A stretch of 64,000 bases of DNA from Apostichopus japonicus (Eukaryota; Echinodermata; Holothuroidea; Aspidochirotida; Stichopodidae). Positions within the stretch are counted from its first letter, which is position 1; every line of letters starts with the position of its first letter. Location of the stretch: positions 5,919,501-5,983,500 of the forward strand of contig NC_092581.1 in the NCBI RefSeq assembly GCF_037975245.1, in the 5' to 3' direction. Below are positions 1-64,000 of the stretch, one piece after another. A model generated the notes under the pieces. It searched no databases, had not been told where the DNA came from, and worked only from the letters and a program-made list of their open reading frames with translations. A program made the position numbers and the translations under genes.

Positions 1-2093
1 TCTTTACATGTTGTCTAGTACATGTAAAAGAGGACGGAACTATAGAAGACCGTGTTAATAACTTTGGAAGTCTGGACAAAGTGAATATGTCACATGTTAC
101 AACCATTTACGCATGGCGTACTGTTTCAAAATGTGGGGCATTGTGGTAAATTTCAAATGTAATTGTCTCTCAACCTGTAAATCAGATGAGTGTATGCTTT
201 GGTGAAGTATTATTTTGTAATTTCTGAGTTCTCTATATGATCCATATCAAAAATCATTTTACAATTCTTTAAAGACAAAACCCAGAATAGTGTCTCAGTT
301 TCCTTTATAGAAGTTGCTAAAAGTTATTACCGATCAAACGTCATATCATCATATTTACATTGTTTGGTTAACAGATGATGTTGAAGGTTCTTGGTGCCGC
401 TAGTAATCTTTCTATGTCAAACATTACGAGACAATGTACTCAAATTGGAACAAAATGTTATCTTTCCAGGTCGGAGAAACAAGAATACACCGAGATTAAA
501 AGGACTGAAGACACTACAGTGTGAACGTATGGACTTTCTCCGTTACTCACACTATTATGGTTTAGGTATTGCCTGGTATTCCTTGACGTGGATGAAATGA
601 TACCTACTAAGTGATAAATTTCATATAATACAACTTTGGGAGAAATTCCTTGTCCATCAAATACAGTATGTTGACCTATCTTCAAGTTTTGCAACATATT
701 CTGTACTCGGGTTTATTCACTATGATTTGACAATCAGCAGAACTTACTTTTGTTTATATTGTTTGAGTCTATTTGAGGTAAAGGTGGTTATTTCATACAT
801 GAAGAATGCTGAAATCAGCGATGAAGTGTGCTGTATATAATTATATAATCTGAGTCCCAAATAGAACCACAATGATGTGTCGTAATATTAATTATTCGAT
901 TGTTGTGGGCACGAATTGCCTCCTTTTCCTGCTTAATTTGCTCAATTGTTACTCGTGATAGTTTTCACATTTTCTATGAAAACAACGTAAGATTATTTTC
1001 TATCAGAGCACCCACCGCTCTTTTTTTTATTATTGGCCTCTGCAATCTGAAATACTTCCCAGCATTGCAACGCCAAAATATTCTCCGTCTTCGGTGAAAA
1101 AGACGGTTTTGGGCAAGTCAAACTAGATGAGGAAAGCAGTTACCAGACGGAAGGTGCAGACGGTAGCGTATGCCATTCGGTATTGCTTCGGCTTCAGAGG
1201 AATACCAGTAGAAAGAAGAAAAATGAGAAAAAGAGGGAGTAGAAGAAAAAACGCCAAGACACCGGGAAGAGAAAGAGGAACAGAGACATAATTACAGCGC
1301 TATATATGATCCCTATTTTCACGATAGCATAACGCTTGAAAACAGAATGGCCAGTGGGTCAACAATAATAAACCTGAATAGTAACCTAGTGTTATGATTG
1401 CAGTACATTCGATGCTTTTATCTGTTGCGCGAGTATAGCTATTAATATCTACTGAATCGGTGTAACAGTGTCGGTACATTTAATTAAAGCTGTGTGTAAA
1501 TGAGGAAACAGGTGGTGTAGGTCACTGACGGACATACATGACAATAGGTGTAACTCGTATACAAATCATGAATAAATCACTCAAATTTTAATTGTGACCG
1601 CGAAGACTACAATACCCAGACCAAGGTAAATTAATTTAAGCATGCATTCTTAGTGTAAGCCTAACCATACATAAGGATTAAAGGGGAGGAATCCCAGACC
1701 ATCATAATGAACTTATATCACCGAGGTCCTTGTGATGAACTTAACCCTTAAATATCTAAGTCCATTGTCTTGCACGATACGGGAGTAAATTGGTTTTTTC
1801 AAAGTCGTGGCATGGAGCTATTTTCTTGGCCAATGTGTAATGTCATAGTGCCACTTGGGATGGTTGGGGGGGGGGGGAGATATAATTGAATTATTTTAGT
1901 TCCCTCTCTCATTTTCAATGTGAATGTTAACAGTTCAATAAACAAATACCAGTTTTATGACAAATTAAAACATGCATACAGGAGCTCATTCCCACTTTAG
2001 ACTTTCTTCCAGTCTCCAATTTCATATCTAAGTTTCATATCATTCATATATAGTGTCTAGTTTGGCTTCTGTTGTGTCTTTCTTAAACCAAAA
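1..2093. other. Non-coding flank of unit A, no gene seen
   Basis: No exon or RNA gene is supported here. A short frame at 391-600 is open in A, B and C but has no ATG start and no recognisable domain. A splice-acceptor-like TTATCTTTCCAG at 459-470 is noted without support from a partner donor. A purine-rich stretch (1195-1285) and a G run (1866-1878) whose length differs between units are present. The equivalent tracts are 31217-33254 in B and 61461-63530 in C. Confidence 0.6.
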
Positions 2094-2340
2094 TGCCAAG
2101 GAAAATGTTTTCATCATATTATTCTACCCTGGCACATGTGATCTATGTATTGCCTGTCTGGTACCATTTTATATTGCAAAACAAAAGCAAAGAAAGAAGA
2201 ATGAAGCTTCTTAAAAACAGATCAGTTATATTTAATTAAGATTACAATATACTTTTAGAGAAAGTAAATGCTGCTGCAAGAACTGAGTTTACAAGAATGG
2301 CTAATAAGATTTACAGTGATTTACAGTGATCAGAATTTAT
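2094..2340 (+). repeat. Dispersed LINE-like fragment, forward copy
   Basis: This tract matches, in inverted orientation, A 24490-24725 inside SLC22 intron 5. Shared blocks include ATTCTACCCTGGCACATGTG and the stretch encoding AAARTEFTRMANKI. The minus-strand copy reads [14 protein letters not shown], so the tract once encoded protein. By style it is probably the C-terminal part of a non-LTR retrotransposon ORF2, but I cannot place the clade. Counterparts lie at about 33255-33500 (B) and 63520-63760 (C). Confidence 0.55.
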
Positions 2341-2389
2341 TACCCACAACACTGTGTCCATAGCAGCAATATACATCTCAGGTCCAGCT

Positions 2390-61316: not shown

Positions 61317-61460
61317 CTTGGACGTTGTTTAGTACTAGCAATGAACTCTCACAGAATAATGATAAAGTAATATACTGAATGAATATTTAACTGAGAAATT
61401 TGAAGGATTTCCGAGAGGCGAAAAAATGATGTGATCTTTACATGTTGTCTAGTACATGTA
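61317..61460 (-). other. LINE 5' UTR and left-flank boundary
   Basis: About 140 bp of 5' UTR before the ORF1 ATG. Its outer end contains CTTTACATG and CATGTAAAAG as a small inverted repeat (61436-61464). The stretch from 61435 on is identical to window position 1 onward. Confidence 0.65.
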
Positions 61461-64000
61461 AAAGAGGACGGAACTATAGAAGACCGTGTAAATAACTTTG
61501 GAAGTCTGGACAAAGTGAATATGTCACATGTTACAACCATTTACGCATGGCGTACTGTTTCAAAATGTGGGGCCTTGTGGTAAATTTCAAATGTAATTGT
61601 CTCTCAACCTGTAAATCAGATGAGTGTATGCTTTGGTGAAGTATTATTTTGTAATTTCTGGGTTCTCTATATGATCCATATCAAAAATCATTTTACAATT
61701 CTTTAAAGACAAAACCCAGAATAGTGTCTCAGTTTCCTTTATAGAAGTTGCTAAAAGTTATTACCGATCAAACGTCATATCATCATATTTACATTGTTTG
61801 GTTAACAGATGATGTTGAAGGTTCTTGGTGCCGCTAGTAATCATTCTATGTCAAACATTACGAGACAATGTACTCAAATTGGAACAAAATGTTATCTTTC
61901 CAGGTCGGAGAAACAAGAATACACCGAGATTAAAAGGACTGAAGACACTACAGTGTGAACGTATGGACTTTCTCCGTTACTCACACTATTATTGGTTTAG
62001 GTATTGCCTGGTATTCCTTGACGTGGATGAAATGATACCTACTAAGTGATAAATTTCATATAATACAACTTTGGGAGAAATTCCTTGTCCATCAAATACA
62101 GTATGTTGACCTATCTTCAAGTTTTGCAACATATTCTGTACTCGGGTTTATTCACTATGATTTGACAATCAGCAGAACTTACTTTTGTTTATATTGTTTG
62201 AGTCTATTTGAGGTAAAGGTGGTTATTTCATACATGAAGAATGCTGAAATCAGCGATGAAGTGTGCTGTATATAATTATATAATCTGAGTCCCAAATAGA
62301 ACCACAATGATGTGTCGTAATATTAATTATTCGATTGTTGTGGGCACGAATTGCCTCCTTTTCCTGCTTAATTTGCTCAATTGTTACTCGTGATAGTTTT
62401 CACATTTTCTATGAAAACAACGTAAGATTATTTTCTATCAGAGCACCCACCGCTCTTTTTTTTATTATTGGCCTCTGCAATCTGAAATACTTCCCAGCAT
62501 TGCAACGCCAAAATATTCTCCGTCTTCGGTGAAAAAGACGGTTTTGGGCAAGTCAAACTAGATGAGGAAAGCAGTTACCAGACGGAAGGTACAGACGGTA
62601 GCGTATGCCATTCGGTATTGCTTCGGCTTCAGAGGAATACCAGTAGAAAGAAGAAAAATGAGAAAAAGAGGGAGTAGAAGAAAAAACGCCAAGACACCGG
62701 GAAGAGAAAGAGGAACAGAGACATAATTACAGCGCTATATACGATCCCTATTTTCACGATAGCATAACGCTTGAAAACAGAATGGCCAGTGGGTCAACAA
62801 TAATAAACCTGAATAGTAACCTAGTGTTATGATTGCAGTACATTCGATGCTTTTATCTGCTGCGCGAGTAGCTATTAATATCTACTGAATCGGTGTAACA
62901 GTGTCGGTACATTTAATTAAAGCTGTGTGTAAATGAGGAAACAGGTGGTGTAGGTCACTGACGGACATACATGACAATAGGTGTAACTCGTATACAAATC
63001 ATGAATAAATCACTCAAATTTTAATTGTGACCGCGAAGACTACAATACCCAGACCAAGGTAAATTAATTTAAGCATGCATTCTTAGTGTAAGCCTAACCA
63101 TACATAAGGATTAAAGGGGAGGAATCCCAGACCATCATAATGAACTTATATCACCGAGGTCCTTGTGATGAACTTAACCCTTAAATATCTAAGTCCATTG
63201 TCTTGCACGATACGGGAGTAAATTGTTTTTTTCAAAGTCGTGGCATGGAGCTATTTTCTTGGCCAATGTGTAATGTCATAGTGCCACTTGGGATGGTTGG
63301 GGGGGGAGATATAATTGAATTATTTTAGTTCCCTCTCTCATTTTCAATGTGAATGTTAACAATTCAATAAACAAATACCAGTTTTATGACAAATTAAAAC
63401 ATGCATACAGGAGCTCATTCCCACTTTAGACTTTCTTCCAGTCTCCAATTTCATATCTAAGTTTCATATCATTCATATATAGTGTCTAGTTTGGCTTATG
63501 TTGTGTCTTTCTTAAACCAAAATGCCAAGGAAAATGTTTTCAATCATATTATTCTACCCTGGCACATGTGATCTATGTATTGCCTGTCTGGTACCATTTT
63601 ATATTGCAAAACAAAAGCAAAGAAAGAAGAATGAAGCTTCTTAAAAACAGATCAGTTATATTTAATTAAGATTACAATATACTTTTAGAGAAAGTAAATG
63701 CTGCTGCAAGAACTGAGTTTACAAGAATGGCTAATAAGATTTACAGTGATTTACAGTGATCAGAATTTATTACCCACAACACTGTGTCCATAGCAGCAAT
63801 ATACATCTCAGGTCCAGCTCAGTGGCGGAGCGTCCATACAGTCAAGGGGCGAATGCCCCCCCCCCCCCCTGACGGACTCAAATGGACTGCTAGCGCCCCT
63901 TTCAGCTTTTTACCACTTTTTACATATTCGCGATTATTGAATTTATTATTGCGCTCTCATCTTCTTATTGACATTTGTCACATTTTGTTGGTGTAATTTT
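61461..64000. repeat. Tandem segmental duplication, unit C (partial)
   Basis: This third unit is cut by the window edge and matches A 27-2570 at an offset of 61434 that drifts by only a few bases. It shares with A, against B, the 28-bp segment at A ~1396-1423 and the absence of two B insertions. Where A differs from both B and C (for example A 396, 147 and 213), the change looks private to A. The grouping is therefore (A,C) with B outside. No SLC22 exon is reached before the window ends. Confidence 0.93.
63820..64000. mobile_element. hAT-like element, left part (unit C)
   Basis: The left end of the same orthologous hAT-like insertion, following the GTCCAGCT duplication copy at 63812-63819. 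The window ends before its right terminus. Confidence 0.8.

Follow-up and report, generated by a model that had tools for sequence, protein, structure and literature searches.

A hybrid unit in a five-unit array of SLC22-type transporter genes in the sea cucumber Apostichopus japonicus, probably formed by unequal homologous crossover

Results

The DNA analysed here is a stretch of 64,000 nucleotides from the genome of the sea cucumber Apostichopus japonicus (C21:5919501-5983500, hereafter the window), which forms the middle part of a tandem array of five units of 27-35 kb, each carrying one SLC22-type transporter gene on the + strand. Two units, U1 and U2, lie upstream of the window, units A and B lie within it, and unit C begins near its right end. 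Here, we show that the affinity of unit A changes at a single point, from C on the left to U1 on the right, and that A is thus a hybrid. Judged by its nucleotide affinities, unit A is a recombinant in which C-type upstream DNA precedes a U1-type transporter coding region. This arrangement is most likely explained by non-allelic homologous recombination (NAHR) that took the array from three units to five, followed by the loss of exon sequence from gene B.

The window was joined with 90 kb of left and 110 kb of right flank into 264 kb, none of which is an N; positions are given in window numbering, with negative values upstream (Table 1). In a 500-bp profile, C was the best match of A in 24 of 25 steps between 500 and 12500, and U1 in 36 of 37 steps between 13000 and 31000. 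Conversely, A was the best match of C in 24 of 25 matched steps from 61500 to 78000, beyond which C resembled no particular unit; C departs from A at ~78.6 kb, in the middle of the unit. The best match of B was U2 (47 of 51 steps). The same switch is seen base by base. The count was limited to positions at which U1 and C could both be aligned to A, and it excluded a minisatellite (14.6-16.3 kb) and an AT repeat (27.47-29.3 kb). To the left of 12,849, A shares its base with C at 155 of 164 informative sites; from 12969 to 31214 it agrees with U1 at 260 of 273 (12 carry the C base and one neither). The best single split of the informative sites falls between 12848 and 12983 and leaves 21 exceptions of 436, which is the single switch between parental types expected of a recombinant unit under NAHR. 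Within this interval of ~135 bp, located 225-360 bp upstream of the start codon of gene A, U1 and C differ by one short indel and one base at 12969. A crossover within the 30-bp minisatellite at 14705-16242 was also considered and is ruled out, since the switch lies at 12.85-12.98 kb.

Trees built from one segment to the left of the switch (1,197 columns) and two to its right (1,689 and 3,602 columns) placed A with C on the left and with U1 on the right, and both inner branches had 100% bootstrap support (200 replicates) in all three. The left part of A differs from C by 56 substitutions in 12,726 aligned bases. The initial annotation, made from the letters of the window, had paired A with C and let B branch first; this holds for the first 12,848 bp of A, whereas further right A is the sister of U1 and C is more distant. 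The indels on which that pairing was based were borne out by a four-way alignment of A, B, C and U2 over the first ~2.6 kb. There, B and U2 have extra bases (5 at B ~31857, 8 at ~31965 and 8 at ~32415), a segment of 33 alignment columns from A 1393 is found in A and C and not in B and U2, and 11 of 19 indel runs split the units two against two, all 11 as A and C versus B and U2. Of 41 variable substitution sites in the same region, 30 unite A and C against B, five B and C against A, four A and B against C, and two are of other kinds. Close matches were seen between A 1-2570 and 61435-64000 (99.26%), and lower ones between A 25-1393 and B 31215-32596 (95.9%) and between A 1423-2663 and B 32593-33831 (98.5%). 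A, B and C had further been said to align throughout; they are real copies, but A and B are separated by large insertions and deletions, with ~6.5-11.5 kb of A lacking a partner in B in the 500-bp profile and the stretch A 27479-29490 missing from B.

By alignment, the duplicated block is a segment of ~63 kb made of U1-right, U2, the long interspersed nuclear element (LINE) and C-left, ~50 kb upstream of the block of A, B and LINE that the window by itself suggests. Its length is 62,973 bp between left edges and 65,738 bp between right edges, the latter taking in a 4,253-bp insertion in C that is absent from A. Once three repetitive stretches are masked, 249 of 55,556 aligned bases distinguish the two block copies (0.45%; 2.5-kb bins range from 0.04 to 1.18%), and separate segments diverge to a similar extent (0.39%, 0.43% and 0.44%), in line with the similar age along the whole block that NAHR predicts. 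Older unit pairs differ by 2.0-4.4%, and D, the segment at the downstream end, differs from A by 5.1%. The nested tandem duplication of the initial annotation survives as a two-gene block with the LINE inside it, with other edges, partner units and tree. The insertion in C (64233-68485) ends in 28-bp inverted repeats, is bordered by a short direct repeat, is also absent from B, and contains no open frame longer than 104 amino acids (aa) among those listed.

The array starts 62.1 kb before the window and ends 32.8 kb after it; it is bounded, at five units, and not the open-ended series of blocks first supposed. A common inter-unit joint lies at unit position ~3515-3625, where homology to D and its right flank gives way to homology to U1. 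Measured between successive joints, the complete units number five (33.5, 32.1, 31.2, 34.5 and 27.5 kb), so that D forms the tail of the fifth and not a sixth. The copies are repeated in direct tandem, and homologous sequence borders them in register, as NAHR requires. The same 102 bp stand at four joints (100% identity for A and C, 98% for U2 and B) and belong to a dispersed repeat with 38 matches in all, 34 outside the array and four inside, some of them adjoining pieces of one copy. A unique filler of ~100 bp at the joint is ruled out by these 34 outside matches.

The LINE accompanies the block. As had been noted, the window opens inside the 5' end of another LINE copy, and the remainder was found upstream of position 1. 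The two copies (-4597 to 24 and 56793-61458) differ by 18 substitutions in 4,619 aligned bases, and the LINE was co-duplicated with the block. No target-site duplication longer than 1 bp was seen at 56793-61458. The boundaries between A and B (31215..31216) and between U1 and U2 (-32086) both correspond to the empty site of this insertion (TTCTT followed by AAAAG); neither of them is a duplication joint.

The genes have nine exons per unit, and eight in B. Gene A matches SLC22 proteins, organic ion transporters of the major facilitator superfamily, over its full length, the class being assigned from sequence: its best relatives of solved structure are SLC22A3 (2.1e-81, residues 2-524) and SLC22A6 (1.3e-79, residues 1-532), and its Pfam matches are Sugar_tr (4.1e-28) and MFS_1 (1.2e-21). 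Complete, open copies occur in U1, U2, A and C, and their introns are bounded by AG and GT. Gene B has suffered a 1.87-kb deletion relative to U2, which retains the sequence, and is probably broken. No Pfam family was found in an intron-containing stretch of B, whose exons are short; a PDB search with one frame of that stretch found SLC22 exons. Coding sequences differ at 4 of 1608 positions between U1 and A, 3 of 1376 between U2 and B, 16 of 1376 between A and B, and 34 of 1608 between A and C, which makes B a closer relative of A than C is across the gene. The proteins of A and U1 differ at two of 535 residues.

The genome (671,581,487 bases, 35 contigs) contains the published A. japonicus marker ApjSNP026 (PMC3397512): its probe occurs with 2 mismatches, and the two primers, which match perfectly, enclose it in the expected 110 bp. 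The same genome was searched with the protein, scoring 81 of 400 candidates, so that the counts are lower bounds. Exon 1 was found at 94-99% identity at the five array units, four of which also gave a match to the last exon; the other exon-1 matches among those listed (28) have 32-48% identity. The units are not mere alternative first exons of one gene, a possibility ruled out because four units contain exons 2-9 and B contains exons 2-8. SLC22-type exon-1 matches are frequent on C21, which makes up 3.2% of the genome and holds at least 19 of the 33 matches listed, five of them in this array and others near 6.2, 10.7-11.5 and 17.6 Mb.

Several other repeats and elements were observed. A minisatellite based on 30 bp lies between exons 2 and 3 and measures ~1.5 kb in A (14705-16242) and ~0.2 kb in B (43573-43774). 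An AT-rich 18-bp/dinucleotide repeat (27471-29254) occupies the space between exons 8 and 9 of A, within the stretch lost by B. A near-perfect palindrome of 181 bp in B (36125-36305), 98.3% identical to its own reverse complement, is perhaps a small inverted-repeat element. The region 10622-11407 contains an open frame of 261 aa that we take to resemble the end of a non-LTR (long terminal repeat) retrotransposon polymerase; it had no Pfam match, and in the 500-bp profile it was matched in U1 and C and not in U2 or B. Positions 1320-2031 are part of a dispersed repeat family, with 35 of 41 listed matches on other contigs and most listed matches covering these positions at 80-87% identity (40 candidates scored). 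Neither a tRNA nor an Rfam match reaching the gathering score was seen in the window.

Table 1. Units, genes and landmarks of the array, in window coordinates
Feature	Position	Strand	Remarks
U1	-62082 to -32087		upstream of window
U2	-32086 to -4598		upstream of window; LINE behind it (to 24)
Upstream LINE copy, last 24 bases (5' end)	1..24	-	continues to -4597
Unit A	25-31215
A left part, C-type	25..12848		partner 61459-78586 (from 64001 outside window)
Inter-unit joint in A	3516..3625		dispersed-repeat sequence
Putative crossover interval	12849..12982		no distinguishing U1/C substitution
A right part, U1-type	12983..31215
SLC22-type gene A	13208..29569	+	535 aa, open
Gene A exons	13208-13609, 14300-14403, 17300-17454, 18626-18794, 19064-19196, 25694-25788, 26612-26820, 27352-27460, 29338-29569	+
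Unit B	31216-56792		partner of U2; LINE behind it at 56793-61458
Inter-unit joint in B	34754..34863
Gene B, exons 1-8 only	42077..55000	+
Gene B exons	42077-42478, 43166-43269, 44847-45001, 46113-46281, 46558-46690, 53153-53247, 54060-54268, 54892-55000	+
Deletion point in B	55019..55109	+	intron-8 repeat, exon 9 acceptor and most of exon 9 gone; exon 9 end kept
LINE	56793..61458	-	reverse transcriptase and endonuclease matches
Unit C	61459-93240		partner of A-left; in-window start 61459-64000
D	93241-96752		downstream of window

Discussion

The single switch in unit A, the register of its breakpoint and the low divergence of the block suggest the following history. The ancestral array would have had three members, namely U1, U2 followed by the LINE, and C. 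Mispairing by two units may then have let U1 recombine with C in an unequal homologous crossover 225-360 bp before the start codon, which would have doubled the ~63-kb segment of U1-right, U2, LINE and C-left in direct tandem and given five units. Later, a deletion would have removed the greater part of exon 9 from gene B, and the 4.25-kb element with its terminal inverted repeats would have entered C. The crossover would have happened in the germ line rather than in the assembler, and the order of events would run from three units to five. The mechanism itself is textbook; the locus is a well-resolved new example of it.

Several observations weigh against this history. The 21 sites that depart from a single split comprise 15 that an outgroup shows to be private to C or U1, four that are unpolarised and two that are unexplained. 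When repeats are left unmasked the block copies differ at 308 of 58,956 positions (0.52%), and divergence along the block is uneven, with two of the 2.5-kb bins above 1%. Near U2 -10.0 to -9.5 kb, U1 is closer to U2 than B is. The two high bins and this patch suggest small later conversions or misaligned repeats. The three-unit ancestral form, moreover, is deduced from one assembly. Finally, a block divergence of 0.45% is no higher than the heterozygosity reported for A. japonicus (0.73% and 1.59% by two methods, PMC5638244; 0.986%, PMC5437941), and the two copies could therefore be allelic.

This last point opens the way to an assembly artefact, in which each chromosome would have fewer units, and U1-right, U2, LINE and C-left would have been walked twice, once per haplotype, and joined at a point of similarity between U1 and C. 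Heterozygous genomes commonly give rise to false duplications (PMC8081667), and we allow this explanation a small but appreciable chance. Against it, the 264 kb are free of gaps, and neither a gap nor a contig edge lies at the join or close to it. The published assembly (671.6 Mb, 34 scaffolds, 23 chromosomes, built with hifiasm from 64x HiFi reads of mean length 14.7 kb, quality value 48.86; PMC10344927) gained 16,400 gap bases when 198 contigs were scaffolded into 34; since this corresponds to 164 joins (our computation) and there is no N here, a scaffold join is unlikely. The breakpoint is in register with both parents to within 135 bp, and in this region no exact forward repeat exceeds 1,732 bp and no exact match between U1 and C exceeds 379 bp, lengths far short of those of the HiFi reads. 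The assembly is also smaller than the genome-size estimates of 0.82-0.9 Gb (PMC5437941). The copies differ by the 1.87-kb deletion and the 4.25-kb insertion, though alleles could do so too.

Two other explanations leave the assembly as it stands. The initial annotation took the block of A, B and LINE (61,434 bp) to have doubled as a whole with its edges at the LINE, and the local period between A and C is indeed 61,434 bp and the LINE does recur. The flanks as assembled refute this model, to which we attach next to no likelihood: C is no longer close to A past ~78.6 kb, in mid-unit, no LINE lies between C and D, and the second copy of A-right, B and LINE is found upstream, not downstream, as U1-right and U2. 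The edges instead fall inside units U1, A and C. Alternatively, five old units might have been homogenised by long-tract gene conversion, U1-right/U2/LINE with A-right/B/LINE and A-left with C-left. Gene conversion between tandem copies is common, and small patches such as that in U2 near -10 kb may exist; the tracts would nevertheless have to cover ~63 kb colinearly, the same LINE sits at the same base in both block copies, and separate segments of the block are similarly diverged, all of which makes this very improbable. We therefore favor unequal crossover in the germ line.

Under unequal crossover, the most interesting feature of the locus is a possible swap of upstream regions, placing a U1-type transporter behind C-type DNA. 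Since the breakpoint lies upstream of the coding region, the protein of gene A is not a hybrid; its expression may be affected. If the duplication is real and still varies among sea cucumbers, it can be imagined, tentatively and with more doubt than confidence, as a young copy-number polymorphism that alters the dosage and expression of one SLC22 transporter whose protein is almost unchanged, beside a gene B without most of its last exon. For sea cucumber genomics, the array provides five very similar SLC22 copies, one of them probably broken, which short-read methods would tend to merge. An organic cation transporter is named in larval expression data (PMC10740944). In the listed titles and abstract openings of the SLC22 and organic cation transporter literature on sea cucumbers or A. 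japonicus, we found no description of this array. More generally, the locus is a nearly base-resolved case of a gene array growing by a two-unit block, and it shows that a tree drawn from a single portion of a unit misleads, as fully supported trees conflict on either side of one point. An assembly error should be checked at the locus before gene counts rest on the array.

Tandem gene arrays that grow by unequal homologous crossover and carry hybrid units are known from the human red/green opsin genes and the CYP2D6/2D7 hybrids. The present array resembles them in its direct tandem units of one gene, its one recombinant unit with two parents and its single breakpoint in register; it differs in that the breakpoint lies upstream of the coding region, that a block of two units was gained at once, and that it is known from an assembly. 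Human SLC22A1-A3 and SLC22A6/A8 form SLC22 clusters, which are likewise made of tandem SLC22 paralogues; unlike those, the copies described here are 97.9-99.8% identical in coding sequence and hence very young. As in yeast CUP1 arrays (PMC4232551), a tandem gene array has later units sharing the joint of the first duplication, but in the sea cucumber this joint falls at a dispersed-repeat edge and the units measure 27-35 kb. The array also shares with heterotype false duplications (PMC8081667) two copies of low divergence side by side in a heterozygous species, and is set apart from them by the absence of any gap or contig edge and by block edges that lie in register inside paralogous units.

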